Shown in pieces: positions 14,796 through 30,420 of a stretch of DNA of 32,466 nucleotides. Numbering within the stretch: position 1 is the first letter of the stretch; every line of letters begins with the position of its first letter. The stretch is from Bacteroidales bacterium (GTDB taxonomy: Bacteria > Bacteroidota > Bacteroidia > Bacteroidales > PWNQ01): contig JAIPAE010000015.1 in assembly GCA_021740245.1 (NCBI GenBank), forward strand, positions 1 to 32,466. The letters are read 5' to 3'. Both the position numbers and the translations under genes were made by a program. The notes under the pieces are model-generated. The model was not told the origin of the DNA, did no database searches, and saw nothing but the letters and a program-made list of their open reading frames with translations.

Positions 14796-16061
14796 TTATA
14801 AGGCTTCCTTTAGTTTATCCACATAGTTGGTTTTTTCCCATGTAAAGAGTTCAACTTCTTTATGTTCATTATTTTTAAAAACAATTTTTTTTGCTGGTTG
14901 TCTCCCCATGTGTCCATATGCAGCAGTTTCTTCAAAAATTGGATTTTTAAGTCCGAATCTCTGGATAATAGCAAAAGGACGAAGGTCAAAAATGTCATTA
15001 ACAATTTCAGATAATTCTGAGTCAGAATGTTTAACTTTTTTCCCTGCAGTTCGTACATAAATTCCTACTGGTTCAGCTACTCCAATAGCATATGCCAGTT
15101 GTACTTCTGCTTCGTCACAAATATCTGCAGCGACAAGGTTTTTGGCAATATGACGCGCTGCGTATGCTGCAGACCGATCTACTTTTGATGCATCTTTACC
15201 TGAAAAAGCACCACCTCCATGTGCTCCTCTACCGCCGTATGTGTCGACTATTATTTTACGGCCTGTAAGACCTGTATCTCCATGGGGGCCACCTATGACA
15301 AATTTTCCTGTGGGGTTTACAAATAAACGAAAATCTTTGTCGAAAAACTTTTGGATTTCCTTAGGATATTGTTCTTTAACTCTTGGTATAAGAATATTGA
15401 TAATATCCGTTTCAATTTTACTCAGCATTTCTTTTTCTGCTTTTTCCGAAGCTTCTGCTGTATCATATTCTGGTTTGATAAATTCTTCATGCTGAGTTGA
15501 AACCACAATTGTATCTATTCTGAGGGGATTGCCATCATCATCATATTCTAATGTTACCTGTGATTTTGAATCTGGACATAAATAAGGCATTAATCCATCT
15601 TTGCGTCTTATTCGAGCTAATTCTGCCACTAATTTATGAGCAATATCTACCGGAAGTGGCATTAAATTTTCGGTTTGCTTTGAAGCGTATCCGAACATCA
15701 TACCCTGGTCGCCCGCACCTTGATTTTCCGGGTCTTCACGTTCAACTCCCTGATTGATATCCGGTGATTGTTCCTGAATAGAAGTCAGGACGCCACAGGA
15801 ATCAGCATCGAATTTGTATTCAGGTTTTGTATATCCAATTCTGCGAATTACATGTCGAGCGATTGTTTGAACGTCAACGTATGCATTGGTTTTAACTTCA
15901 CCACCAACGATGCATAGGCCTGTAGTAACTAATGTTTCGCAGGCACATTTAGAATCTGGGTCCTGCTTTAAAAGTTCATCCAGAATTGCATCTGATATTT
16001 GGTCTGCAACTTTATCAGGATGGCCTTCTGATACTGATTCTGATGTGAAATAATATGACAT
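14796..16061 (-). CDS. metK: S-adenosylmethionine synthetase
   Basis: 421 residues, standard for MetK. Family motifs are visible: [19 protein letters not shown] (about 6-24), the [12 protein letters not shown] methionine/ATP loop (about 117-128), and [20 protein letters not shown] (about 266-285) with the P-loop-like GGGAFSGKD. It makes SAM from methionine and ATP in the cytoplasm. The start at 16061 ([10 protein letters not shown]) matches the family; an in-frame ATG at 16130 would add 23 residues overlapping ahcY and is rejected. It is the last gene of the operon, 19 bp after ahcY. In this context it would turn methionine from MetH into SAM for the neighbouring methyltransferase. Confidence 0.96.
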
Positions 16062-16080
16062 TGTAATTATTTTTTTTTGA

Positions 16081-17505
16081 TTAATATCTGTAATGTTCTG
16101 GTTTATGTGGTCCGTCTTGAGGAACACCAATATATTCTGCCTGGCTTTGGCTTAGCTTTGTCAGACTAACATTTAGATGTTTCAGGTGAGCTAAGGCCAC
16201 TTCTTCATCTAATTTTTTAGGTAATCGATAAACTTTGTTTTCGTGTTTGTTTTTCCAAAGTTCAATTTGTGCAAGAACCTGATTCGCAAATGAATTGCTC
16301 ATTACAAATGAAGAATGTCCTGTTGCACATCCAAGATTTACAAGACGTCCGCCGGCTAGCAATATTATGGAATGCCCATCAGGAAAGATATATTCATCTA
16401 CCTGGGGTTTTATATTGCGTTTTTTGATATCACTGCGTTCTTCAAGTTTTTCTACCTGGATTTCATTATCAAAATGTCCAATGTTGCAAACAATGGATTT
16501 GTCTTTCATCTTCTCCATTTGCTCAACTGTAATGACTTCTTTATTTCCGGTAGCGGTAACATAGATGTCTCCATGTGGGAGTAATTGTTCCAGTGTTTTG
16601 ACTTCGAAGCCTTCCATGGAAGCTTGCAAAGCACAGATGGGATCAGTTTCAGTAACTGAAACTTTAGCCCCGAATGCATTTAAGCCTTCAGCACAACCTT
16701 TGCCAACACCACCGAAACCGCAAACCACTGCACTTTTGCCTGCAATCATGATATCTGTTGCTCGTTTTAACCCATCAATTAAAGATTCACGATTACCGTA
16801 ATTATTATCAAATTTTGATTTTGTAACAGAGTCATTTACGTTAATAGCTGGAAACAAAAGAGAGCCGTCGTTTTCACGGATGTATAATCTATTTACTCCG
16901 GTAGTTGTTTCTTCTGATGTTCCACGGATTTCTTTTACAGCTTTATGCCATTTCTGCTTATCATAACTTAAAATTTGTTTTAATTTACGAATTAAAGCTT
17001 GTTCGTCCCAGGCTTCAGCATCACGGTCAAGTATAGTTGGATTTTCTTCTGCTTCATAACCGTGAGTTACCATTAATGTAGCATCTCCTCCATCATCAAC
17101 AATAATTGTTGGTCCTTTATCACCGGGAAATGATAATGCCTGAGCTGTGCACCACCAATATTCATCAAGTGTTTCTCCTTTCCAGGCAAATACTGGGACA
17201 CCAGTGGTTGCGATGGCCGCAGCAGCTTCGTCCTGTGTGGAGTAGATATTGCAGCTCGCCCAGCGCACATCTGCTCCCAATGCTGTCAGCGTTTCAATCA
17301 AAACTGCAGTTTGCACTGTCATGTGGAGTGAACCTGTAATGCGCGCTCCTTTTAATGGTTGTTCTTTTCCATACTTTTTTCTTAATTCAATCATTCCCGG
17401 CATTTCATGTTCTGCCAGTTCAATTTGTTTGCGACCCTCATCGGCAAGCTTAATATCTTTTACCTTGTAGGCCATGTTGCTGTCAATCTTTTCTAAATCA
17501 ATCAT
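16081..17505 (-). CDS. ahcY: S-adenosylhomocysteine hydrolase
   Basis: 474 residues, typical of the bacterial enzyme. Signatures include [20 protein letters not shown] (about 53-72), the NAD-binding [13 protein letters not shown] (about 267-279), [15 protein letters not shown], and the conserved C-terminal HYRY. It hydrolyses S-adenosylhomocysteine to adenosine and homocysteine with bound NAD. A second start at codon 11 ([10 protein letters not shown]) matches many homologues equally well, so the true N terminus may be 10 residues shorter. It sits 27 bp after the SDMT-like gene and 19 bp before metK. Removing SAH both prevents product inhibition of the methyltransferase and regenerates the homocysteine that MetH needs. 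Confidence 0.96.
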
Positions 17506-17532
17506 AATAGTGTATCTATTTTATTATTATTA

Positions 17533-18369
17533 TTATTTTTTAAAATGAAAAATTCCCCAGGTTAAATTTCCTTCTTTACCACCATTAACCCAATTCTGGA
17601 GTCCTGTTTTCATATTTTGTATATATTGGTCGGAAACATGGTCTTTTATTTTATCCATGTTTTCTTCTGTTTCCCGCAATACTTTGGCGTAATGATTAGA
17701 TAATTGTTCTGGCATTTCTTTGAAATCAATAAAATTTAAGCCATATTCAAGGGCTTTGGATTTGTAAAATTCCGGGCTACCCAATGAGGATAATTGAATG
17801 CGTTCATAAATTGGTTGAAGCACCTCTTTATTGCAGTTATAGGTTTGCATGGGGTCAGTAAAAACCATGTCACCACCTGGTTTTAATACCCGGGCAGCTT
17901 CTTTAATAGTTTGTTCCCGTTCTCCACTATGTAAAATAGCGTCCTGCGACCAAACTATATCAAATGTATTATCTTTAAAAGGAATATCTTCAAAACTTCC
18001 GTCAATTACATCAATTTTATCGTCAAGCCCTTGCTGTTTATTGAGTTTGCAACCATATTCATTTTCTACTTCACTGAGGTTTATTACTGTTACATGGCAT
18101 CCGAATTTTTTTACCAGATGCCTGGCGCTGCCGGAAAAACCACCACCTAAATCAATGACTTTTGTGTTTTTGTTAATTTGTTCAGGGTAATTACTCATTT
18201 CATCAATAGTCCGACGACTGGCAAAAAAGATATCGTCTTCCAATGAGTCATATATCCCAAGATGCAAATCTTCACCGCCCCAGATCATGGAATAGAAATT
18301 TTGTGCATCTTTACTGTTGTAATAATTCCTGGCTGTTTCTACGACTTCTGAATAAGTTTTCTCAGTCAT
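17533..18369 (-). CDS. SAM-dependent sarcosine/dimethylglycine N-methyltransferase-like
   Basis: 278 residues, the size of bacterial sarcosine/dimethylglycine N-methyltransferases (SDMT). It has a class I fold with SAM motif I VIDLGGGFSGSA (about 71-82), motif II region DGSFEDIPF (about 123-131), and the family-specific blocks WGGEDLHLGIY (about 30-40), WSQDAILHSGER (about 140-151) and, at the C terminus, MKTGLQNWVNGGKEGNLTWG (about 253-272). These blocks are shared with the SDMTs of halophiles that convert sarcosine and dimethylglycine to glycine betaine. The substrate is inferred; no glycine/sarcosine methyltransferase (GSMT) partner is in the window, so dimethylglycine alone or another amine is possible. 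Placed next to ahcY, as expected for a SAM-consuming step. Confidence 0.8.
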   Translation of the reverse strand: MTEKTYSEVVETARNYYNSKDAQNFYSMIWGGEDLHLGIYDSLEDDIFFASRRTIDEMSNYPEQINKNTKVIDLGGGFSGSARHLVKKFGCHVTVINLSEVENEYGCKLNKQQGLDDKIDVIDGSFEDIPFKDNTFDIVWSQDAILHSGEREQTIKEAARVLKPGGDMVFTDPMQTYNCNKEVLQPIYERIQLSSLGSPEFYKSKALEYGLNFIDFKEMPEQLSNHYAKVLRETEENMDKIKDHVSDQYIQNMKTGLQNWVNGGKEGNLTWGIFHFKK

Positions 18370-18394
18370 AAAATCCTTTCTGTTTTAATGGTTA

Positions 18395-19198
18395 TTATTT
18401 ATTAAAATCGAATAATCCGTTTCTATATGCTTCAACATAATTCATACAATAATCATCTTTCCCTATCAATGTTTCAGCAGCTACAATATTTGCCATCATA
18501 CGTTGATCCATTGGGTTAAGTATTGCAGAATCTAGACCTTTAGTGATGGCCATGGACATAAAAACCTGGTTGGCAAATTGGCGCTTTGGGATTCCGTAGG
18601 AAATATTGGATAAACCACATATTGTGTGAACACCTTCATATTGTTCTGTTATGGCTTCAATCGTTTTCAAAAATTCATTACCAAGATGATTTCCTGAGCC
18701 TATTGGGTGAACCAAAGGATCGACATAAATATTTCCTGGCTTTACATTGTTTTGAACTAGACTATTGATGAGTTTATCTGCTATTTTTAGTCTGTCTTCC
18801 TTTGTATAAGGCATTCCTTCATCACTCATACAAAGCGCAATGATTTTTGCATCAGTGCCTTTCAAAATGGGTAGTATCGCATTGTATCGCTCAGATTCAA
18901 GTGAAATTGAATTGATCATCGGAGTGCCTTTATGTATTTTTAATGCTTCTTCTACAACTTTTGGATCCGGACTGTCAATGCAGCAAGGTGTATCAAGAGT
19001 TTCCTGTACTGTTTCAACCAACCAGTTCATATAATCGGTTTCTTTACCGACAAAGATACCGGCATTAACATCTATAAAATCTGCTCCATGCTCATGTTGT
19101 TCTTTAGCTACTTTTGCGATGACATCGCGATTTTTTTCTTTAATATCATCACGAATTTTTTTTCTGCTGGCATTGATTAGTTCGCCTACTATTCGCAT
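18395..19198 (-). CDS. Methyltetrahydrofolate:corrinoid methyltransferase (MtgA/AcsE/MtrH-like)
   Basis: 267 residues forming a single pterin-binding TIM barrel, as in AcsE, MtgA and MtrH. Visible motifs: GELIN near the N terminus, DVNAG (43-47), CCIDSPDPKVVEEAL (about 72-86), INSIS (95-99), DPLVHPIGSG (160-169), CGLSNISYGIPKRQ (about 194-207) and AILNPMD (about 225-231). Family members move a methyl group between a corrinoid protein and (methyl)tetrahydrofolate; MtgA does so in glycine-betaine demethylation. Its neighbours (corrinoid protein, two MttB-family proteins) fit the MtgA role. Direction is not shown by the sequence. The gap to the DUF1638 gene is 9 bp and to the SDMT-like gene 25 bp. 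Confidence 0.9.
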   Translation of the reverse strand: MRIVGELINASRKKIRDDIKEKNRDVIAKVAKEQHEHGADFIDVNAGIFVGKETDYMNWLVETVQETLDTPCCIDSPDPKVVEEALKIHKGTPMINSISLESERYNAILPILKGTDAKIIALCMSDEGMPYTKEDRLKIADKLINSLVQNNVKPGNIYVDPLVHPIGSGNHLGNEFLKTIEAITEQYEGVHTICGLSNISYGIPKRQFANQVFMSMAITKGLDSAILNPMDQRMMANIVAAETLIGKDDYCMNYVEAYRNGLFDFNK

Positions 19199-19207
19199 AA
19201 TTTTCTC

Positions 19208-19882
19208 CTATTTTAAAAAATGTGATTGTTTACTTTTTTCACCAGGATTTAAAATGACAAATTCCTTTTTTTTGTAAGGGCCATTAATGATTTTATTCAA
19301 CAATACAGTAGACCCTTCTATTTCAATAAATTTTTTATTGAAAAATTGTGCATTTTCTATTGCTATATTTCTGTAATAATCAGAGTCTCCGGTGTGATTG
19401 TTGATAAATGCAATATATTTGTAATTTTTGATTTCAGTGTCCATAGCTTCTTTAGCCATGTCGTATCCGACTCGTTTCGTGTATTCGTTGTTTACCAGTC
19501 CTAACGGATCTTTCTGATTGATAATCCAGTTTCTTGTAAGATAATATGTACCTGGAAGTTCTTGAAACAGTTTATAATAGTGCATTATTCCGCCGAGATA
19601 AATACCAATACAATCATGTAATTTGGGAATAATTAAACATGTACCTGGTGCTTTTAAACCAACAGTGCCATTAGAGCACAGCCCATATCCCAAAACGATC
19701 ATTTTAGTGTTGTGAGCAGCATTATTAATAGCTGTTTGCAATCGTTCTGTTAGTTTTTTAGGTTGCCTGTGTAGTGACTGTGGCATGAATTTTAGCTCAA
19801 TATCATCCTGGCCGGAATGTAAATTTTCCAGTTCGGCCTTGATACTTCCACATGCTATTATGGTTTTTTTAATTTTTTTCAT
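19208..19882 (-). CDS. DUF1638 family protein
   Basis: 224 residues with the DUF1638 core: ACGSIKAELENL (about 11-22), LHRQPKKLTERLQ (about 37-49) and LGYGLCSNGTVGLKAPGT (about 64-81), then IPKLHDCIGIYLGG (about 86-99). The conserved cysteines in GLCSNG and HDC could bind a metal. Family function is unknown, but members are often encoded beside corrinoid methyltransferases in methanogens and anaerobes. Its ATG overlaps the stop of the HyuA-like gene (ATGA), so the two are translationally coupled and likely work together. A role in corrinoid handling or methyltransferase maturation is inference only. Confidence 0.85.
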   Translation of the reverse strand: MKKIKKTIIACGSIKAELENLHSGQDDIELKFMPQSLHRQPKKLTERLQTAINNAAHNTKMIVLGYGLCSNGTVGLKAPGTCLIIPKLHDCIGIYLGGIMHYYKLFQELPGTYYLTRNWIINQKDPLGLVNNEYTKRVGYDMAKEAMDTEIKNYKYIAFINNHTGDSDYYRNIAIENAQFFNKKFIEIEGSTVLLNKIINGPYKKKEFVILNPGEKSKQSHFLK

Positions 19883-21888
19883 GAATTGATCGTTTCAACG
19901 TATTCAGAAATCTTTGGATTACCTGCTGATCGTGCTGTGAATCTTGTTAAGGAGCCTTCGACGTGCTTTTTAACCTCAGTATAAGGATCATTACTGCCGG
20001 CTTTTAGGGTTGCTTCCCTGGCTAATACATGAGCTTTAGCTTCAGCTGCTTCGCAAGCTTTTTCGTAGGTATCATAGTTTTCGGTTTGTGAATTGTATTT
20101 TAGTTGATAAGTGTAATGTTCTCCATCATCGCGGATGAAAACTATAGCTTCACGAGTTTCTGAAACTGAACCGGAAACGGCTCCAACTGCATTGGCAACT
20201 TCTGAATATTTTGGCAAATAACATTTTGTATTTATAAGACGTGCAGCGTCTTTCATAAAATGACGGGCAGGAGCTCCACTACCGATAATCGGAATTTTGC
20301 TGGTCATATCTAATGATAATAAATCACTATGGTGATACAAGATTTCTTTTAAAAGCCAACGCCCCCATTTTCCATCGATTCTTCCTGGCATATCTGACTT
20401 ATTCGTTGCACTTCCTGCCATGAAGAGTAAAACTTCTTCGATAAGCCGGTCTTCAAGGGCATCAAAAACTTTTTCAATTAATTCTTTTGTGGAAAGATTG
20501 AATAATTTGCTAAAAGCTGTTGTTGCTATATCAGCAGCTTCTTTGTCCCATAAACTTATATTACCGTTTGAATGTAATAAGTCAGTACTGTTAAGGAAAG
20601 AACATTCCACAAAGCCTTGCCGGATTAGTTCATGCATCTTCAGATGTTCCGGATGGCAAACGTGAAATTTGTCTATTAACAACGAAAGTTGTTGTGGTTC
20701 TCTAATTTCTTCAATAATAGCTTTCTGTTGTTGATCTAATTGATTCAAGGAATGTTCATCCAGTGGTTGATGAAGGTGCCAGAATTCTAAATCATGCAGG
20801 CTTTTCAATTTTTGAAAGTTGTTTTTTTCCAACTCCTTTAAAGTTTCTTTGATATACGGATAATAACTGGATATTTGCGATAAAGCGCGCACTCTGTCAG
20901 GGCCGATAACTGGCTTCATAGTATTATTAGTTAACTCGATTCTGCTGTCACAACCCAGGCTGATCGTGCGAATACTGGCTGCTTCTACTGCTGTTTCCGT
21001 GTCTCCGACTTTTGCTCCTGACTCCGAAACAACAACTCGAGAATTTTCCACAAGGGCCATATCTGTCGTAGTACTACCCATATCGATTACCAATGACTTG
21101 TTGATATCAGAAGATAGAAATTTTCCCCCAATAGCACTTGCGGCAGGTCCCGACAATACACTCTCAACAGGTTTTTGCAAAGCTTCTTCATATGGCATAA
21201 GCGTCCCGTCTCCCCTTACTACCATTATTGGAGCTTCTATTTTTAATTCTTTTATAGAATAGCTGACAGATTGTAAAAAATCTTGCATAACAGGAACTAA
21301 TGAGGCATTTATAGATGCTGTTGCAGCCCGTTTTACTGAATTTAGTTTCGTCGAAAGTTGATGTCCCATTACAACAGGTAAGCCAGATTCTTCAGAAATA
21401 ATATCAAAGGCTTGTTTTTCATGAGTTGGATTAAGCGGACTAAAATACCCGGAAACAGCTACTGCATCAACTAAATCTTTTTTATCACTAATCCATTTTC
21501 TAACTGCAGCCTTATCTAATGGTTCGATCTGTGTCCCCTGGGCGTTATGCCCTCCTTTGATATAAGTTAAATCTGTTGTTGCAAAATCAGATTCTAATCC
21601 ATAATTCTTAACTAGTGCAGGTTTATAACCGATCAACAACAAGGCAACCTTTCTGGCTTTTTCTTCAGCAATACTATTAGTGGCCAGAGTACTGGATATA
21701 CCCACTAGTTTAATGTTACAATCAATCGGAATTGTTAGCTTTTGAAGAACTTTAATGACACCTTGCTTTAAATCCTTACGTGTAGTTAAACTCTTCGCTG
21801 CTGAAATTACTTCACGATTAGCGTAATCTAACAGTACACCATCCGTAAATGTTCCGCCTGTATCTATCCCTATAAGGTACCGATTCAT
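19879..21888 (-). CDS. Hydantoinase/oxoprolinase (HyuA)-like ASKHA ATPase
   Basis: 669 residues, close to HyuA size. The N-terminal phosphate loop IGIDTGGTFTDGVLLD (6-21) and the second phosphate motif VIDMGSTTTDMALVENS (267-283), with VRGDG (224-228) and SGPAAS (246-251) between, define the hydantoinase-A/oxoprolinase branch of the actin-like ATPases. Cysteines are few and do not form a [2Fe-2S] or [4Fe-4S] motif, so it is not a classic RACo (which has an N-terminal ferredoxin domain) or RamA. No HyuB partner follows, arguing against a true hydantoinase. Its position among corrinoid methyltransferases suggests ATP-driven reductive activation or remodelling of the corrinoid protein; this is inference. 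Confidence 0.82.
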   Translation of the reverse strand: MNRYLIGIDTGGTFTDGVLLDYANREVISAAKSLTTRKDLKQGVIKVLQKLTIPIDCNIKLVGISSTLATNSIAEEKARKVALLLIGYKPALVKNYGLESDFATTDLTYIKGGHNAQGTQIEPLDKAAVRKWISDKKDLVDAVAVSGYFSPLNPTHEKQAFDIISEESGLPVVMGHQLSTKLNSVKRAATASINASLVPVMQDFLQSVSYSIKELKIEAPIMVVRGDGTLMPYEEALQKPVESVLSGPAASAIGGKFLSSDINKSLVIDMGSTTTDMALVENSRVVVSESGAKVGDTETAVEAASIRTISLGCDSRIELTNNTMKPVIGPDRVRALSQISSYYPYIKETLKELEKNNFQKLKSLHDLEFWHLHQPLDEHSLNQLDQQQKAIIEEIREPQQLSLLIDKFHVCHPEHLKMHELIRQGFVECSFLNSTDLLHSNGNISLWDKEAADIATTAFSKLFNLSTKELIEKVFDALEDRLIEEVLLFMAGSATNKSDMPGRIDGKWGRWLLKEILYHHSDLLSLDMTSKIPIIGSGAPARHFMKDAARLINTKCYLPKYSEVANAVGAVSGSVSETREAIVFIRDDGEHYTYQLKYNSQTENYDTYEKACEAAEAKAHVLAREATLKAGSNDPYTEVKKHVEGSLTRFTARSAGNPKISEYVETINS

Positions 21889-21983
21889 GATAGTGTAATT
21901 TTTTTTTGATTATTTGCTAAAAATGGATTGTATTAAAATTGATATTTTTCAGGGTATCGTTTTAACCTGTATTAAGGCAGTGT

Positions 21984-22012
21984 AAAATTTAAATCAGAAG
22001 GAAGACACCAAA
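21984..22012 (-). promoter_or_regulatory. Weak candidate internal promoter ahead of the HyuA-like gene
   Basis: The longest gap inside the operon is 219 bp (21889-22107). On the minus strand it contains TTTG (22012-22009), 17 bp, then TAAATTTT (21991-21984), seven of eight matches to TAnnTTTG. Spacing is two bases short of usual. If real, it would let the HyuA-to-metK genes be expressed without the MttB genes. No ORF or relic is evident in the gap. Confidence 0.25.
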
Positions 22013-22107
22013 AGGTTTAGATTTTGAATGGATGTAGCTGTCGAAGTTGCCACAGGGTGATATTTCTTCTGAAACTATCGTATTTTCAAAAACTATTTAT
22101 TCACGAG

Positions 22108-23586
22108 TCATGACTCCGGATCATTTTTTATTCTTACTTCAGCTTCCTGAAGGATTTTTTCAATTTCCTGATCAGCATTTTCGGGGACTTCATTGTTAGG
22201 ACCTTCATAATTATCGATTAAATTTCTTGTTTTTTCAATAATCCGGTCTTTCATGGTTTTTTGCCCTTTTTCCTGCCAGCTTTCATAACTGTTGCGGTCC
22301 ATCAGAGTTGGCTGCCAGTGTTTTCGGAACCATTTCATAGTGTGGTCTTCATATAAATAATGACCTCCTGAACCAACATTTTTAATGACATCTACAGCAA
22401 GAGTTTCTTCATTTACTTCTATTCCTGCTTCAATTATTCTGGCCATACCAATCAGCTCATCAGCCATAACTGCCTGGAAAATATCACCAGTCATTCCACT
22501 TTCTGTATATCCATTGTCGTGCACGAAATTTGCACCGCTCATCATTGCTGCATTAATGGAAAGTGCTGCTTCCATTGCAGATTGTATATCCATTTTTTTT
22601 GTATCAGTACATCCGGATTGAGAGTACATAGGGAGGCCACAATAGTGGACGACTTCCGTATGAGCAGCGCTAAGTAAGCTTAGCTCCGGGGCTCCATAAG
22701 AATAAATGGAGTTACGCATATCTAGGATTGACTGGACACCTCCAATAATAACACTGGTGCCGGGGGATATTAGCTGGGAAGCAATTACACCAACCATGGA
22801 TTCGGAAAGTGCTACAACAAGCTGCCCTGCATGAGTTGCGGGTACAGTTCCACCACCAATGGCACAAGGGCTGTAAACCTGGGGTATTCTATTCTCCGCA
22901 CAATACATGCATTTGTCAATAGCATGAAAATCACTTACAAGTGGCGAGATGGGTTCCCCATAAAAAATATAATTGGGTCTGTGTCTAAATTCTTCTTCAC
23001 CACCAGCCATAGCAATCGCCATACGGTGAATATCTCTGCAGCCATTGCGTGTGAATGACCAGCTCATAATAGGTGTAGTAGTATTGCGAACCATATCAGC
23101 AAATTCATAGACATCAGCTAAACCATTAGAAACATCACTAATGGAACCTAATGATTGTACATAGCCCATATTGGGTAATGCATCGCATACTCGAGCTACG
23201 GTTGAAGCATCTTTTCTAATGTAGGGACGACGTTCCAGCGTATCAGGGTCTATAAAATTTGGAGGTGTTGGTCCCGGACCAAAATAACTGCGGTCTTTTT
23301 CAATTGTTATTTTTTTAGATTCATCTCCGTTCCATGGAAATACTTCCGTTACAGGAGGAACAGTTGCCAGTGCATTTGTAATTACTTCGGAAGGAAAAAA
23401 TACTTTTATTCCATCAACCTTGCATCCGGCCTTTTTAAAAAGTTCTCTTGCTCCTTCGTGGTGTACATTTGCACCGGTATATTGTAATGTCCGCAGCATT
23501 CCATTATAAATTCTTTCTTTTTGATTATCAGAAAGAATTTGAAAATGTGGAGTTTGTTGTATACTGTAATTTGTTCTTGTACTCAT
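22108..23586 (-). CDS. MttB-family (non-pyrrolysine) methyltransferase, copy 2
   Basis: 492 residues of the trimethylamine methyltransferase (MttB) superfamily. Motifs: YGEPISPLVSDFHAIDK, YSYGAPELSLLSAAHTEV, SQSGCTDTKKMD, SGANFVHDNGYTESGMTGD and GSGGHYLYEDHTMKWFRKHW. No in-frame amber codon occurs, so the pyrrolysine of true MttB is absent, as in MtgB, MtpB and MtcB, which demethylate glycine betaine, proline betaine and carnitine. Substrate cannot be told from sequence by eye. The start at 23586 (MSTRTNYSIQ) is chosen because the following sequence then aligns with copy 1; an upstream ATG at 23628 would overlap copy 1 by 29 bp. The two copies are clear but distant paralogues, and copy 2 lies 13 bp after copy 1. 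Confidence 0.88.
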   Translation of the reverse strand: MSTRTNYSIQQTPHFQILSDNQKERIYNGMLRTLQYTGANVHHEGARELFKKAGCKVDGIKVFFPSEVITNALATVPPVTEVFPWNGDESKKITIEKDRSYFGPGPTPPNFIDPDTLERRPYIRKDASTVARVCDALPNMGYVQSLGSISDVSNGLADVYEFADMVRNTTTPIMSWSFTRNGCRDIHRMAIAMAGGEEEFRHRPNYIFYGEPISPLVSDFHAIDKCMYCAENRIPQVYSPCAIGGGTVPATHAGQLVVALSESMVGVIASQLISPGTSVIIGGVQSILDMRNSIYSYGAPELSLLSAAHTEVVHYCGLPMYSQSGCTDTKKMDIQSAMEAALSINAAMMSGANFVHDNGYTESGMTGDIFQAVMADELIGMARIIEAGIEVNEETLAVDVIKNVGSGGHYLYEDHTMKWFRKHWQPTLMDRNSYESWQEKGQKTMKDRIIEKTRNLIDNYEGPNNEVPENADQEIEKILQEAEVRIKNDPES

Positions 23587-23599
23587 GGTTAAATTTGTT

Positions 23600-25048
23600 T
23601 TAGGCATGACGCTTATCTGCATCGTCACAAATTTTCTTTAATTCTTGTTTAAGTTCTTGTGTCATCTGTTTGGGTTGATAATTGTCTAACAGGTCCTGAG
23701 TTCGTTCTTTAACTCTGTCACCCATTGTTTTAGATCCATTTGCAACCCAGGTTTCATAGTCGCTTCGGTCTTGTAGGTCAGGTAAATACCATTCTTTCCA
23801 ATGATTAAATGTGTGATCTGTAGTTACATATTCTCCACCAGGGCCTTGCTTTTCAATCAGCTCAAGAGCAAGATGATCATCATCAGTGTTGATCCCTTTA
23901 CCAAATTGCTTCACCAGACCCATCATTTCCTGATTTAGAACAAGACTTTCCAATGATGCATTGGTGCCATGATCAATATATCCAACATCATGAATCAGAT
24001 TGGCTCCTGAGAGATATGAGTAGAACAAACTCGTCATTTGCTCAGCGGCAGCTTGTTCATCAAGGATTTTGGAATCAGAACAGCCTCCGGTACTAAACAT
24101 AATCAGGTTGAGCCATTTTGAAATATCTGTATTAGCGGCAGAAGCCAGAGATAATTCAGGCGCACCATATGAATATGTTGACATTTTCATATCAAGCAAT
24201 GTGGTTACACCGCCCATTATTAAAGGCATACCCGGGTTTTTAAGATGGCAAAGTACAGAGGCAAGTAGTGTTTCAGCCAGTGATTGTACAAGCATTCCGG
24301 CCATAGTTGCCGGTGCTGTTGCTCCAGAACTTGGACAGGGAGTGTACATAGCCGGGATTTTCTTTTCTGCAGCAAATAGTAATTTTTCTACAGCAGTTCT
24401 GTCGTTTTTCAATGGCGAAATGGGTTCGATATAAGCTACAAATAAGGGATTGAGACGAAACTCCTCTTCTCCTCCCTGGATAAGGCATCCCATTTTCCAT
24501 AAATCCTCGAGACCTTCACCATCAACACTTGTTACAACCATTGGCTTTGTATTGTTTTCAACCATTGCCATAAATTGGTGGCGGTCATATGTTTGCGGGT
24601 TTGGCGCGTCACCTACAATACCATGAGACATTAAAAAATCATAATGAGAGAGAGCATCAACTAATTTTCCAGCATTTTTTACATCTTGATATCGTGTTCT
24701 TCTGCGCTCTCCTGTTTCTCTATCGTAGGTAAATGGTAAGTCAGAGCCTGTACCAAAGGCAACAGTATCTTTTTGGAGTGATAATAGATTTTTTTTATCC
24801 CTTCCGCGGAGTGTTATTTTGCGAGGGTAAAAGTTTAATGCTTCTTCCACCATAAAAGGAGGAATTCTTACAGTATTTCCATTAACTACTGCATTGCTGT
24901 TTTTAAATAGAGTAAGCGCCTCTTCATGAAATATTTGCCCACCTGTTTGTTCAAGAACTTCCAGCGACGCAAAAAAAATCTGTTCAATTTGATCTTCTGA
25001 AAGTACTTTAAACTGTGTGCTTTTATTAATTTGTTGGTTAATTTTCAT
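23600..25048 (-). CDS. MttB-family (non-pyrrolysine) methyltransferase, copy 1
   Basis: 482 residues, an MttB-superfamily TIM-barrel methyltransferase. Signatures: YIEPISPLKNDRTAVEKLLF, STYSYGAPELSLASAANTD, FSTGGCSDSKILDEQAAAEQ, SGANLIHDVGYIDHGT and GPGGEYVTTDHTFNHWKEWY. There is no in-frame TAG, so it belongs to the non-pyrrolysine (MtgB-like) group that removes a methyl from a quaternary amine and passes it to a cognate corrinoid protein. It lies 60 bp downstream of that corrinoid protein gene. The duplication of MttB genes with one corrinoid protein suggests two substrates sharing a carrier, or a hetero-oligomer. Glycine betaine is a reasonable but unproven substrate. Confidence 0.9.
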   Translation of the reverse strand: MKINQQINKSTQFKVLSEDQIEQIFFASLEVLEQTGGQIFHEEALTLFKNSNAVVNGNTVRIPPFMVEEALNFYPRKITLRGRDKKNLLSLQKDTVAFGTGSDLPFTYDRETGERRRTRYQDVKNAGKLVDALSHYDFLMSHGIVGDAPNPQTYDRHQFMAMVENNTKPMVVTSVDGEGLEDLWKMGCLIQGGEEEFRLNPLFVAYIEPISPLKNDRTAVEKLLFAAEKKIPAMYTPCPSSGATAPATMAGMLVQSLAETLLASVLCHLKNPGMPLIMGGVTTLLDMKMSTYSYGAPELSLASAANTDISKWLNLIMFSTGGCSDSKILDEQAAAEQMTSLFYSYLSGANLIHDVGYIDHGTNASLESLVLNQEMMGLVKQFGKGINTDDDHLALELIEKQGPGGEYVTTDHTFNHWKEWYLPDLQDRSDYETWVANGSKTMGDRVKERTQDLLDNYQPKQMTQELKQELKKICDDADKRHA

Positions 25049-25108
25049 TTGAAAAGTTTTTAAGATTTTAGAGTCGGATATAGCAAAATTCCGAAAATAA
25101 ATAGAATG

Positions 25109-25756
25109 TTAGCTATTGTTTTGAGCAAAATATTGTTTCGTTAACTCAACAGCAGAACCTGCGTTTGGAGCATATAAGTCGGCACCTATTTCATCAGCAA
25201 ACTCTTTAGTTACTGGAGCACCACCGATTATTACAGCCATTTCATCTCGGATTCCTGATTCCTTCAGAGAATTTATTACTTCGCCCATACGTGGCATAGT
25301 CGTCGTTAGTAAGGCAGACATACCAAGAACATCAGGTTTGTGTTCAATGGCAGCATTTACAAATGCTTCATTGGGCTGGTCAATTCCAATATTTAGTACC
25401 TCATAACCAGCGCCTTCAAACATCATCCCTGCCAGATCCTTACCTATATCATGCAGGTCACCGGCTACGGTTCCAAGTACCATTTTTCCTGCACTACCCA
25501 TATCGTCTTTGGATAGATGTGGTCTTAAAATGTCCATAGCCTTACTCATTGCTTTAGCAGAACGTAAAACTTCTGGCATAAACATATCCCCATTGCGCCA
25601 AAGTTGACCTACTTTATCCATACCCGGCAATAAACCTTTGTTTAATAATATTGCGGGTTCTGTGCCAGTTTCAATTGCCTGGTTAGTTTGTTCCTGTAAT
25701 TGTTCTATTTGCCCTTTTGTAATTAATTCGCTTATTCTTTCAAAATCGATATTCAT
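25109..25756 (-). CDS. Corrinoid (B12-binding) methyl carrier protein
   Basis: 215 residues with the two-domain plan of methyltransferase corrinoid proteins (MtgC/MttC-like). The helical cap is about 1-88; the B12-binding Rossmann domain follows with VAGDLHDIGKDLAGMMFEG (about 97-115), where His102 would be the lower cobalt ligand (DxHxxG), then SALLTTTMPRM (about 147-157) and GGAPVTKEFADEIGADLYAP. The cap also carries the MPEVLRSAKAM segment seen in MetH. It accepts a methyl from the MttB-family enzymes and hands it to the MtgA-like protein. It is 30 bp from metF and 60 bp from MttB copy 1. Confidence 0.93.
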   Translation of the reverse strand: MNIDFERISELITKGQIEQLQEQTNQAIETGTEPAILLNKGLLPGMDKVGQLWRNGDMFMPEVLRSAKAMSKAMDILRPHLSKDDMGSAGKMVLGTVAGDLHDIGKDLAGMMFEGAGYEVLNIGIDQPNEAFVNAAIEHKPDVLGMSALLTTTMPRMGEVINSLKESGIRDEMAVIIGGAPVTKEFADEIGADLYAPNAGSAVELTKQYFAQNNS

Positions 25757-25786
25757 AATTTTTTATTTTTTATTTTTATTTATTAT

Positions 25787-26704
25787 TTACGGTACATGCG
25801 GTGTAAAGCTTTCCTTATATTTTTCATTTAATTCTTCATGTCCTTTAGAAAGATTTTCATACAAGTCAACTGCTGCTCTGGAACGGTTCAACGTATAAAA
25901 GTGAATGCCTGGTGCACCGTTGTCAAGTAAATCAGAGCATTGTCGTATAGCCAGATCAAGCCCAATTTTGTAAACTTCCTTTGGTTTATCTTTATTTGGT
26001 TCCAGCTTTTCCTGAAACGACTTGGGAATAGATGCTCCGGAGATTTCAGAAAATTTCTTTATTTGTTTAAAGGAGTTAATTGGAATTATTCCTGGAATTA
26101 TTCGGCATTTTATTCCTTTTTGCTCAGCCTTATTGACAAATTCCCAATAATACTTATTGTTAAAAAACATCTGAGTAATAAAAAAATCTGCTCCTGCATC
26201 AGCTTTTATTCTGAGATTTATTAGGTCCTCTTCCATACTTGGCGCTTCCTTATGTTTTTCAGGATAGGCACCGGCACCAATGCAAAAGTTATACCTTTCT
26301 CTAACAAAGCGAATAAGGTCACTGGCATAATCGATACCATCAGGGTTTGGTGGACACTTTTTCTTAATATCTGGCGGGTCTCCTCGTAACAACATCACAT
26401 TTTCAATGCCCATATCTTGAAGTGTTCGCATATCATAGGCGATCTTCTCATGTGTGGCATTTACACAAGTATAATGTGCCATACAGTTAAAATCCAGGTT
26501 GTTGTGAAAAAGATCAACAACATCGAAAGAGTTGTCTCTTGATGAACCACCCGCCCCGTAGGTTACACTGACAAAAGAAGGCTGCAGTTTCATTAACTGG
26601 CCTGCGTTTATTCCAAATCTAATTGCATTATGCAAGTCTTTAGGCGGGAAAAATTCAAACGAGAATGTTTTTTTGTTTTTTTTGAAAACATCAGTAATCT
26701 TCAT
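25787..26704 (-). CDS. metF: 5,10-Methylenetetrahydrofolate reductase
   Basis: 305 residues, typical of bacterial MetF. The N-terminal FSFEFFPPK (about 14-22) with the catalytic glutamate, VTYGAGGSSRDNS (about 48-60), NVMLLRGDPP (about 101-110) and DFFITQMFFNN (about 173-183) identify the FAD-binding TIM barrel. It interconverts 5,10-methylene-THF and 5-methyl-THF. It lies between metH (23-bp gap) and the corrinoid protein (30-bp gap). In a methyl-group catabolic setting it could run in the oxidative direction, as in acetogens, with ferredoxin-coupled partners; no MetV is seen beside it, so the ordinary biosynthetic direction is equally possible. Confidence 0.95.
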   Translation of the reverse strand: MKITDVFKKNKKTFSFEFFPPKDLHNAIRFGINAGQLMKLQPSFVSVTYGAGGSSRDNSFDVVDLFHNNLDFNCMAHYTCVNATHEKIAYDMRTLQDMGIENVMLLRGDPPDIKKKCPPNPDGIDYASDLIRFVRERYNFCIGAGAYPEKHKEAPSMEEDLINLRIKADAGADFFITQMFFNNKYYWEFVNKAEQKGIKCRIIPGIIPINSFKQIKKFSEISGASIPKSFQEKLEPNKDKPKEVYKIGLDLAIRQCSDLLDNGAPGIHFYTLNRSRAAVDLYENLSKGHEELNEKYKESFTPHVP

Positions 26705-26727
26705 AAAAAATATTATGATTTTTAGGT

Positions 26728-29700
26728 TTATTTATTTGTATTGTAATTAAGAATAGGCCTGAACAATAATTCCACTTGTTCTGTGGATATGTTCTGGCGT
26801 TTTGCATAATCTTGAACCTGGTCTTTAGATATCTTGCCAAGATTGAAATATCTGGATTGAGGCAGAGAAAAATAAAAACCACAAACCGAGCTTGCAGGAT
26901 GCATAGAATAGCTTTCAGTTAGTTTTATACCTATGTTTTTTTCGACATCCATCAAACTAAAAATTTCTTTTTTCAAACTGTGATCCGGGCAAGCGGGATA
27001 TCCAGGTGATGGCCTGATTCCGCTGTAGTTTTGTTTCATTAATGTTTCATTATTTGACTGCTCTGCTTTACTGTATCCCCAGTATTTGCTTCTCACATCT
27101 TGATGTAGAAGCTCAGACATTGCTTCTGTCAAACGGTCTGCAATAAGACGGAACATTATACTGTTATAACTATCACCTTGTTGTTTGAATTTCTCGATAT
27201 ATTTTTCGCCTCCGAATCCGGCACTAGCTGCAAAGGTTCCGATATAATCTTTGGTGCCGGAATTAACAGGTGCAATGTAATCGCTTAACGAGAAAAAATA
27301 AGGGTTCGAATTATTGTTTTTTTGTTGACGCAGCATTGGTAGTGTTGTTCGGATATTTTGACGGTTTTCATTTGTAAATAACAGTATGTCATCACTTTTC
27401 CCGGCTGCCGGATAGATACCTAATATCGCTCTTGCCTCAAGTTTATCATGTTCAATTATATCAGCAAGCATCTCCTTGGCTTCTGCAAAAAGTCGCCTGG
27501 CCTCAGACCCTTTTTTATTTTGTTCTTCTAAAATCCTGGGAAATTTTCCCTTTAGACCCCAGGCATAAAAAAACATCTGCCAGTCAATGTGCGGTTCTAT
27601 TTGTTTTAATTTATATCGGATAATTTTGTTCTGATTTAATAAATGTGGTTTTATGGGAGTATGTTTCTTGAAGTCAATTTGATAGGGTTGTTTACGGGCT
27701 TCATTTAATGATTTGTAATGAGCACTTTTACCAGCTTTGTTGTCATATTCTGTTTTTATCCAAAATTGTTTTTTTTGGATATCTTTTTTAAATTCTGTAG
27801 AATTATTACTAAAAAGTTGGTTTATCAAATGTGTACTTTGAGAGGCGTCTCCACCACGTAGTACCAGTCCCGAATAAACAGGGGCAATTATTACTGCTGT
27901 ATGTATTTCTGATGTAGTTGCCCCACCCAGAATTAAAGGGACTCGAAATTTATTGGCTTCCATTTTTTCAGCTAATTCCTGCATATAATTAAGTGAAGGT
28001 GTTATCAACCCACTAACCCCTACAACATCGGGTTGGTGTTTTTTTATTGCGTTAATTATTGTGTCATTGCTAACCATGACTCCCAGGTCAATAATTTCGT
28101 AATTATTGCAGCTTAATACTAGTGCAAGAATGTTTTTACCTATGTCGTGAACATCGCCCTTAACTGTTGCAAGGAGGATTTTACCTTTAGCTTTTGCATT
28201 CTGTACTTTGTTTTCTTTTTCTATATAAGGCATTAAATAGTTAACAGCTTGTTTCATAGTGCGTGCTGTTTTAACCACTTGTGGTAAAAACATCTCACCT
28301 TTTTCAAATAGGTTGCCAACTACGGCCATCCCTTCCATTAAAGGTCCTTCGATAATATTTAGGGTATTCGTAAAAGTATCGCGCAATAAGTCAAGGTCAT
28401 AAGTTAGATATCTTGTTTCTCCATGTATGACTGCCTTGATAATACGTTCCTCTGGATTGAGTTTTAGCCATTCACTTGTAGGTTTAGAATTTTTGTTTGT
28501 GGTTGTTGAGTATTTTTTACCTGCCTCTAACAGCTTTTCTGTTGCAGTGTTGTCCTTGTTTAGCAGAACATTTTCAACTCTATTTCTAAGTTCAATTGGA
28601 ATTTCTTTGTATGGAGTAATTTTTGACGGGTTGATAATTGCGAAATCTAATCCTGCCTTTGCTGTTAAATGGACGAAGACAGAGTTCATGGCATCCCTTA
28701 CTGCCGTATTCCCTCTGAAAGAAAATGAAACATTGCTTATTCCTCCGCTGACTTTGGCATGTGGTAGATTGTTTTTTATCCAACGGGTTGCTTTAATAAA
28801 GTCAACTGCATAATTGTTGTGTTCTTCAATACCGGTAGCTACTGTGAGTACATTTGGGTCAAATATGATGTTTTCAGGTGGGAAATTTATAGCTTCAGTA
28901 AGTAACTTATAGCTTCTTAAGCAAATTTGTTTTTTTCGTCCAAAGGTATCTGCTTGTCCGTTTTCGTCAAAAGCCATGACAACCACGGCAGCTCCATAAT
29001 CTTTTAAAATTGCAGCATGCTGTAAAAATTCATTTTCACCTTCTTTCAGGCTGATTGAATTGATTATTGGTTTGCCGGTTACATTTTTTAAACCTTCATG
29101 AAGTATCGAAAAGTTTGAAGAATCTAACATTAATGGGCAAGAATTGATTTTAGGATCAGAAGCCAGTAACCGCAGAAATCTCACCATTGCTTTTTTACCA
29201 TCTATCATGGCTTCATCCATGTTAATATTCAGCATTTGTGCGCCATTTTCAATTTGCTCTTTAGCAATCTCAAGGGCTTCTTCATATTTCTCTTCTTTAA
29301 TAAGTCTGAGAAATTTCTTTGAACCCATTACATTAGTTCTTTCTCCAATTTTAATATATGATAAAGAATCAGAAACATTCAATTCATCCAGCCCACTAAG
29401 TATTGTTTTTATAACCTTTTGCGGTTTTTTGCGTGGTGAATATTTTTTTGCTGTTTTACTGATTTCTCTGATGTGTTCAGGTTTGCTTCCGCAACATCCA
29501 CCAATAATATTTACGAGACCATTTTTGCAGTACGATTCAACTTCTTTTGCCATAGAATAAGGCGACTGTTCATATTCTCCTAATTCATTCGGAAGACCGG
29601 CATTAGGGTGTGCACTAAGGAAAAAGTGTGACTTATCTGCTAATTTTTTAAGTTGTATTTCAAGATGTTTCGCTCCAAATGCGCAATTCATTCCTAATAT

Positions 29701-30420
29701 TGGCAGCGGAAGATCAGATATAGTAGAAAGAAAGGCTTCAATCGACTGTCCAGTTAACATTCTTCCCTTAGTGTCATTTATAGTAAAAGAAACCATAATA
29801 GGAAATTTGTGTCCAGTCGAATTCATTAATGTTTTTATAGCTTGTATGGCTGCTTTTGCATTAAGAGTATCAAAAATTGTTTCAATCAGAAAGATATCTA
29901 CACCTCCATCCCATAATCCTTTAGCTTGCTCATAATAAGTTTCAAAAAGTTCATTAAATGTGACATCACGATATCCTGGGTCCTCTACACTTGGCGAGAT
30001 AGAAGCCGATTTGTTCGTAGGTCCAATTACACCTGCGACAAACTTTTGTTGTGTGGTGGGTTGAAAGGAGTGTATTGCTTCTCTGGCTATTTCAGCGGCT
30101 TTTTTGTTAAGATCGTAAACATGGGTTTCTAACCCATAATCAGACATCGAGATAGCATTTGCATTAAATGTGTTTGTTTCTATAATATCAGCACCAGCAG
30201 TTAAGTATGCCTGGTGAATTTCTTTAATAATATCAGATTGAGTAAAGTTAAGCAGCTCATTGTTACCTTTTTGGTCAATTGCTTCCGTTTTAAAGCGCTC
30301 GCCTCTGTATTGATCTTCTGTAAGGTTATAGGTTTGTATCATTGTTCCCATTGCCCCATCCAATACTAAAATTTCTTTTTGTAACAGGTTTATCAACTTA
30401 TTATATATCTGATCGTTCAT
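26728..30420 (-). CDS. metH: Cobalamin-dependent methionine synthase, full length
   Basis: 1,230 residues with all four MetH modules. (1) Homocysteine domain about 5-330 with zinc ligands Cys246 (GMNCAFGA) and Cys309/Cys310 (GGCCGSKPEH). (2) Methyl-THF (pterin) domain about 355-630 with MLNINMDEAMIDG and PIINSISLKEG. (3) B12 domain: cap about 655-745, then the cobalt-ligating His758 in KGDVHDIGKNIL. (4) SAM-binding reactivation domain about 905-1230 with RPSPGYPACPDHSL and HPASSVCGFYFSLP. It transfers methyl from methyl-THF to homocysteine. It is the first gene of the operon. Because this full-length enzyme carries its own reactivation domain, it does not need the ASKHA protein. Visibly AT-rich compared with clpB. 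Confidence 0.97.
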   Translation of the reverse strand: MNDQIYNKLINLLQKEILVLDGAMGTMIQTYNLTEDQYRGERFKTEAIDQKGNNELLNFTQSDIIKEIHQAYLTAGADIIETNTFNANAISMSDYGLETHVYDLNKKAAEIAREAIHSFQPTTQQKFVAGVIGPTNKSASISPSVEDPGYRDVTFNELFETYYEQAKGLWDGGVDIFLIETIFDTLNAKAAIQAIKTLMNSTGHKFPIMVSFTINDTKGRMLTGQSIEAFLSTISDLPLPILGMNCAFGAKHLEIQLKKLADKSHFFLSAHPNAGLPNELGEYEQSPYSMAKEVESYCKNGLVNIIGGCCGSKPEHIREISKTAKKYSPRKKPQKVIKTILSGLDELNVSDSLSYIKIGERTNVMGSKKFLRLIKEEKYEEALEIAKEQIENGAQMLNINMDEAMIDGKKAMVRFLRLLASDPKINSCPLMLDSSNFSILHEGLKNVTGKPIINSISLKEGENEFLQHAAILKDYGAAVVVMAFDENGQADTFGRKKQICLRSYKLLTEAINFPPENIIFDPNVLTVATGIEEHNNYAVDFIKATRWIKNNLPHAKVSGGISNVSFSFRGNTAVRDAMNSVFVHLTAKAGLDFAIINPSKITPYKEIPIELRNRVENVLLNKDNTATEKLLEAGKKYSTTTNKNSKPTSEWLKLNPEERIIKAVIHGETRYLTYDLDLLRDTFTNTLNIIEGPLMEGMAVVGNLFEKGEMFLPQVVKTARTMKQAVNYLMPYIEKENKVQNAKAKGKILLATVKGDVHDIGKNILALVLSCNNYEIIDLGVMVSNDTIINAIKKHQPDVVGVSGLITPSLNYMQELAEKMEANKFRVPLILGGATTSEIHTAVIIAPVYSGLVLRGGDASQSTHLINQLFSNNSTEFKKDIQKKQFWIKTEYDNKAGKSAHYKSLNEARKQPYQIDFKKHTPIKPHLLNQNKIIRYKLKQIEPHIDWQMFFYAWGLKGKFPRILEEQNKKGSEARRLFAEAKEMLADIIEHDKLEARAILGIYPAAGKSDDILLFTNENRQNIRTTLPMLRQQKNNNSNPYFFSLSDYIAPVNSGTKDYIGTFAASAGFGGEKYIEKFKQQGDSYNSIMFRLIADRLTEAMSELLHQDVRSKYWGYSKAEQSNNETLMKQNYSGIRPSPGYPACPDHSLKKEIFSLMDVEKNIGIKLTESYSMHPASSVCGFYFSLPQSRYFNLGKISKDQVQDYAKRQNISTEQVELLFRPILNYNTNK

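Follow-up and report, generated by a model that had tools for sequence, protein, structure and literature searches.

The window analyzed here, a 32,466-nucleotide stretch of a Bacteroidales genome (G000), carries an operon-like run of genes on the minus strand in the order metH, metF, mtgC, mttB, mttB, hyuA, DUF1638, mtgA, a sarcosine/dimethylglycine methyltransferase-like gene, sahH, and metK. Methionine synthase MetH (26728–30420), which has its own activation domain (PF02965, residues 938–1210), and methylene-H4F reductase MetF (25787–26704; PF02219) precede an MtgC-type corrinoid protein (25109–25756; PF02310/PF02607), the presumed client of the gene pair discussed below, for which the best NCBIfam match was MtgC_2 at 228 bits, under its cut-off of 370. 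The two MttB-family methyltransferases (23600–25048 and 22108–23628; both PF06253) are encoded in open frames without a pyrrolysine stop codon. Beyond the HyuA-like ATPase and the DUF1638 protein lie an MtgA-type methyl-H4F:corrinoid methyltransferase (18395–19198; NF005719, 347 bits), a sarcosine/dimethylglycine N-methyltransferase-like protein (17533–18369; NF041675, 369 bits, under its cut-off of 550), S-adenosylhomocysteine hydrolase SahH (16081–17505; named from sequence reading and conserved in the operon), and methionine adenosyltransferase MetK (14796–16130; TIGR01034, 516 bits). A demethylation set of the quaternary-amine type (MttB, MtgC, and MtgA) and a full SAM cycle (MetF, MetH, MetK, and SahH) are thus found together at 14796–30420, such that a single operon holds both directions of methylation, and with the sarcosine/dimethylglycine methyltransferase-like gene it could serve glycine betaine synthesis or recycling. 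Rfam PYLIS_3, the pyrrolysine insertion element of mttB, matches 23983–24082 on the minus strand, a stretch of the first MttB gene in which the frame is not interrupted by a stop codon; further matches were found in L028 and in L018 and L034, which come from one genome. No cobalamin riboswitch was detected in the window at gathering score; one is present near the operon of a Bacteroidales relative (L028:3384–3613, minus strand).

The gene pair of interest consists of an ASKHA ATPase of 669 amino acids (hyuA; 19879–21888, minus strand) and a DUF1638 protein of 224 amino acids (19208–19882, minus strand). A previous sequence-only reading of the window had described these as an overlapping pair, and both open reading frames, their Pfam domains, and the ATGA shared by the hyuA stop and the DUF1638 start (19879–19882) were confirmed. 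The overlap suggests that the two genes are translationally coupled, and the same 4-nt overlap occurs in six related loci (L023, L025, L026, L027, L028, and L031). The gene order of the window recurs, either complete or clipped by contig ends, in Bacteroidota MAGs from the same genus, the same order, and beyond, in which HyuA is 50–73% identical to the window protein; this degree of conservation across relatives rules out a chance neighborhood. Many of these MAGs have sediment or Great-Salt-Lake-like record labels, from which the habitat is interpreted.

HyuA matches Hydant_A_N (117.6 bits, E 7e-34) and Hydantoinase_A (100.2 bits, E 2e-28) above the cut-offs, with MutL as a weak further Pfam match. 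The ATP motifs are intact (DTGGTFTD at 9–16, DMGSTTTD at 269–276, and GxGAP at 536–540), and G11, G12, T13, T15, D16, D269, G271, T273, T274, D276, and G538 are invariant across 77 HyuA sequences. HyuA has no match to PF14574, the C-terminal ASKHA domain of RACo, and neither HyuA nor DUF1638 matches a ferredoxin-family or Fe-S domain in Pfam or the MetH-type activation domain PF02965. The earlier description of HyuA as lacking Fe-S cysteines holds in so far as the sequence has no CxxC ferredoxin motif, but the protein has six cysteines, three of which (C313, C429, and C612) are invariant in the Bacteroidota clade (16 rows, 59% mean identity). The HyuA tree unites these 16 rows with support (SH-aLRT 98) and nests them in a larger group with Opitutales and Hydrogenedentota (SH-aLRT 100). 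Only the Bacteroidota group has C429, while C313 and C612 are common to the larger group, whose Opitutales and Hydrogenedentota members bear RACo. Only 19 invariant HyuA columns are diagnostic of the clade and three of these are cysteines, a proportion for which a simple hypergeometric test gives 4e-4, a value that ignores relatedness and the fact that the cysteines had been examined first.

The AlphaFold2 model of HyuA (mean pLDDT 90.9) is closest in fold to the acetone carboxylase beta subunit (Z 28.4, 520 aligned residues, rmsd 4.2) and not to RACo, and the HMM match to solved structures ends near residue 335. The hydantoinase, 5-oxoprolinase, and caprolactamase HyuA proteins and acetone carboxylase beta belong to the same sequence family and fold as the window protein, and the closeness to acetone carboxylase beta and caprolactamase alpha would fit an ordinary ATP-dependent enzyme acting on a small molecule (a lactam, hydantoin, or similar) that feeds the methyltransferase pathway, with the adjacency to DUF1638 a matter of operon packing. 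Relatives at 30–33% identity without corrinoid genes or an annotated HyuB nearby are in keeping with such an enzyme. Against it, HyuB (PF02538), with which HyuA is paired in the known HyuAB enzymes, was missing from G000, in line with the earlier reading of the window, and from 20 of 21 other genomes searched, the exception being an Opitutales genome, making the known HyuAB chemistry unlikely for HyuA; further, the link between HyuA and the MttB/corrinoid genes persists across phyla. A small-molecule enzyme is for these reasons considered quite improbable. Mobile elements offered little additional context, as viral contigs contained no HyuA relative, plasmid relatives of HyuA reached only ~30–33% identity in unrelated contexts, and a single query returned no DUF1638 match on plasmids.

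The DUF1638 protein matches PF07796 over nearly the entire profile (E 7e-37, 127.1 bits; residues 32–198, profile positions 1–160 of 161). The conserved cysteines noted previously are real: C11, C69, and C91 are invariant in 43 sequences, as are H38 and W119. Residue 89 is a histidine in the window clade and an aspartate elsewhere, and H89 tracks the larger HyuA group (Bacteroidota, Opitutales, and Hydrogenedentota). In the AlphaFold2 model (pLDDT 95.3), strands 1 to 4 are each followed, at the C-terminal end, by one of C11, H38, C69, and C91, so that these four candidate ligands could lie on one edge of the sheet and may form a shared metal or cluster site. Sequence searches identified no solved relatives, and the structural matches were weak and Rossmann-like only (best, aspartate racemase; Z 7.3, 99 residues, rmsd 3.1), and were not used.

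It should be noted that a connection between DUF1638 and corrinoid reactivation is already published and is not new to this analysis. In Phaeobacter, the fitness pattern of the split methionine synthase correlates with those of two genes, one for DUF1638 (PGA1_c13340) and one for a RamA-like DUF4445 protein; methionine rescues mutants of both, and the two families have a common phylogenetic profile in the Alphaproteobacteria, though no specific function was offered (Price et al. 2018, PLoS Genet, PMC5764234). The same DUF1638 assignment is used in a 2025 PNAS paper (PMC12478193). The gene contexts recovered here agree with that role: in L127 the DUF1638 and RACo genes have a 4-nt overlap, in L126 they are adjacent, and in L128 and L129 DUF1638 is accompanied by RACo, MtgA, and MtgC; of 58 DUF1638 hits in the HyuA genomes, 17 lie ≤10 kb from a RACo. 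A natural fusion of 540 amino acids (L021:15429–17051), with a UroD/MtaA-type methyltransferase-like start and a DUF1638 end, follows a corrinoid protein gene in a genome (G090) that is 98% complete and without RACo.

The distribution of RACo/RamA was determined with PF14574, the C-terminal domain, for which the Methanosarcina acetivorans control was positive. From the genomes behind 80 HyuA loci, 50 were searched, comprising 16 from the Bacteroidota (including G001, G002, and G042, and one titled Balneolales) and 34 from other groups. No match was found in G000, which is weak evidence on its own given a completeness of 66.6%, or in the same-genus genomes G001 (89% complete) and G002 (92%) and the same-order genome G042 (97%). 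The absence of RamA and RACo that had been read from the window thus extends to these genomes and to 14 of the 16 Bacteroidota carriers overall. Both of the Bacteroidota carriers with a RACo have it away from the hyuA operon (L109 and L110), adjoining URO-D and homocysteine-methyltransferase genes in G104 and without a nearby corrinoid gene in G109. DUF1638 is present in 15 of the 16 Bacteroidota carriers and in 43 of all 50 genomes. Conversely, all 34 carriers outside of the Bacteroidota (Chloroflexi, Desulfobacterales, Opitutales, Hydrogenedentota, and Eggerthellaceae) have RACo, often in the same operon as HyuA. The co-occurrence of the pair with a missing RACo, proposed previously as a check, is therefore seen within the Bacteroidota lineage and fails outside of it (0 of 34 without RACo), and the idea that HyuA and DUF1638 are in general a RACo split in two, or that HyuA replaces RACo everywhere, was rejected. 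Outside of the Bacteroidota, this constant co-occurrence implies a role for HyuA other than RACo replacement, most likely as a companion of MttB.

The sequence-only reading of reactivators in the window also requires a correction, as the MetH of the window has a B12 activation domain of its own. This raises the prospect that MtgC is reactivated in the manner of MetH, by the activation domain of the operon MetH or a stand-alone relative with flavodoxin and SAM, leaving HyuA and DUF1638 out of the reduction. Two MetH genes are present in each of G001 and G042, and in G320, where RACo is absent, the MttB gene overlaps a stand-alone Met_synt_B12-like gene of 238 amino acids, with a similar gene near another corrinoid protein in G414. 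However, searches of G001, G002, and G042 gave no stand-alone Met_synt_B12-like gene, the operons of L026–L028 have no metH beside them, and in known systems the MetH activation domain acts intramolecularly, within its own chain. Reactivation of this type is judged unlikely for the window, though it is a serious competitor to the main explanation. The stand-alone genes, which contain part of PF02965 and sit next to MttB/corrinoid genes (L108:8849–9565 in G320 and L134:5822–6517 in G414), represent a possible third reactivation route in RACo-less Bacteroidota, and a weak PF02965-like stand-alone gene also follows RACo in an Opitutales locus (L035). Both G320 and G414 belong to the Bacteroidota and possess MttB-MtgC without RACo and without an MttB-linked HyuA (G414 has an unlinked HyuA-family gene), indicating that the absence of RACo does not require HyuA; the expectation that HyuA is obligatory in MttB-bearing Bacteroidota genomes devoid of RACo was rejected accordingly.

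The position of HyuA relative to its neighbors allows for two interpretations. In a genome of the same order (G009), a methanol-methyltransferase operon reads corrinoid protein-mtaB-ramA-DUF1638, in which RamA scores 755 bits to TIGR04270, over the cut-off, and its stop overlaps the DUF1638 start as taATG. HyuA in the window operon holds the slot that RamA has in G009. Across several phyla, the gene immediately before HyuA encodes an MttB in 53 of 66 cases, and DUF1638 is its neighbor in 16. The usual order in the Anaerolineae is mtgC-mttB-mtgC-DUF1638-mttB-hyuA-gntR-RACo, so HyuA, DUF1638, and RACo coexist there. A second HyuA paralog occurs downstream of RACo in the Anaerolineae operons L053, L057, L064, and L088, with a transporter-like gene between the two (EamA in L064). 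The gene of ~215 amino acids that follows HyuA in the Chloroflexi was considered as a divergent DUF1638 and rejected, as it looks from its sequence to be a GntR/FCD regulator; in those operons, a gene of similar size matches the GntR/FCD families.

These arrangements could mean that HyuA is an accessory to MttB, for example an ATP-dependent assembly, substrate-activating, or gating factor, with DUF1638 as the only one of the two to act in reactivation, together with a separate reductase. Consistent with an accessory are the placement directly after MttB in several phyla, the second HyuA alongside RACo in the same Anaerolineae operon, and the split methionine-synthase-like operons with RACo and DUF1638 that are without HyuA (L128 and L129), and this alternative is a possibility to be taken seriously, if a doubtful one. 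An MttB accessory does not predict the coupling of HyuA to DUF1638 in the Bacteroidota, the missing RACo, or the new invariant cysteines. Combined, the presence of HyuA in the RamA position next to DUF1638, the lack of RACo, and the clade cysteines suggest that HyuA took over as the ATPase. As the RACo-poor carriers are one lineage, this association counts as about one event, and the coincidences that favor a take-over may all belong to it.

The best explanation for the window's clade, held tentatively and with reservation, is that HyuA and DUF1638 reactivate the corrinoid protein, acting as the maintenance module of the MttB/MtgC/MtgA operon. The earlier proposal of a corrinoid-activation module is supported for the DUF1638 half by published genetics, while for the HyuA half the support is positional and specific to the Bacteroidota. 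DUF1638, elsewhere a partner of RACo/RamA, would serve on the corrinoid side, an assignment supported by gene coupling in the window and by the genetics from a different phylum. HyuA, a companion of MttB operons in other phyla, would have taken over as the ATP-driven component in the RACo-less Bacteroidota. Under this proposal the two proteins would interact physically, and HyuA would bind and hydrolyze ATP to bring about a conformational change through which Co(II)-MtgC, the putative client, accepts an electron or, alternatively, a damaged corrinoid is exchanged. The C11/H38/C69/C91 site of DUF1638 would hold the metal, cluster, or thiols used, and C313, C429, and C612 of HyuA perhaps do so as well. 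A stronger version, that in salt- and soda-lake Bacteroidota a HyuA-family ATPase with three clade cysteines replaced RACo/RamA and with DUF1638 constitutes a further corrinoid reductive activator, with ATPase and metal site on separate chains, is more speculative and on balance unlikely.

Several known systems bear comparison with the proposed module. RACo, RamA, and AcsV (PF14574, TIGR04270, and NF040756), like HyuA, are ASKHA ATPases of corrinoid methyltransferase operons that are coupled to or adjoin DUF1638, whereas HyuA is without PF14574 and without a ferredoxin domain and co-occurs with RACo outside of the Bacteroidota. The DUF1638 proteins of Phaeobacter (PGA1_c13340) and Ruegeria (SPO2162), whose published mutants behave in fitness assays like those of methionine synthase and a RamA-like gene (PMC5764234, PMC12478193), are in the same family (PF07796) as the window protein, which differs in having HyuA and not a RamA-like protein as its partner and H89 in place of D89. 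Unlike the hydantoinase, 5-oxoprolinase, and caprolactamase HyuA proteins, the window HyuA has no HyuB and is found in MttB operons. The archerases and diol-dehydratase reactivases (HgdC and DdrA) belong to the ASKHA ATPases and power low-potential reduction or the exchange of cofactors, and though they are among the structural hits for HyuA (1hux, Z 17.4; 2d0o, Z 15.3), they are different families and the likeness is limited to the ASKHA core. A figure legend for the glycine betaine clusters of strain DCMF places a HydA (hydantoinase) gene among MttB/MtgA-type clusters, and the passages found propose no function and draw no link to DUF1638 or to RACo loss (PMC9768040); this HydA is likened to the window HyuA by gene name and cluster setting. 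A search of open-licence papers turned up no description of HyuA exchanged for RamA in combination with a missing RACo and lineage-specific cysteines, and these are the elements new to this analysis, along with the putative role of HyuA in reactivation.

To our knowledge, all corrinoid methyltransferases need a return route from Co(II). The present lineage, with a different ATPase coupled to DUF1638 and with RACo missing, offers a natural two-component system for separating the role of DUF1638 from that of RACo, and may bring to light a new type of ATP-driven reductant. The HyuA gene that accompanies MttB operons in several phyla gains a first testable hypothesis for its function.
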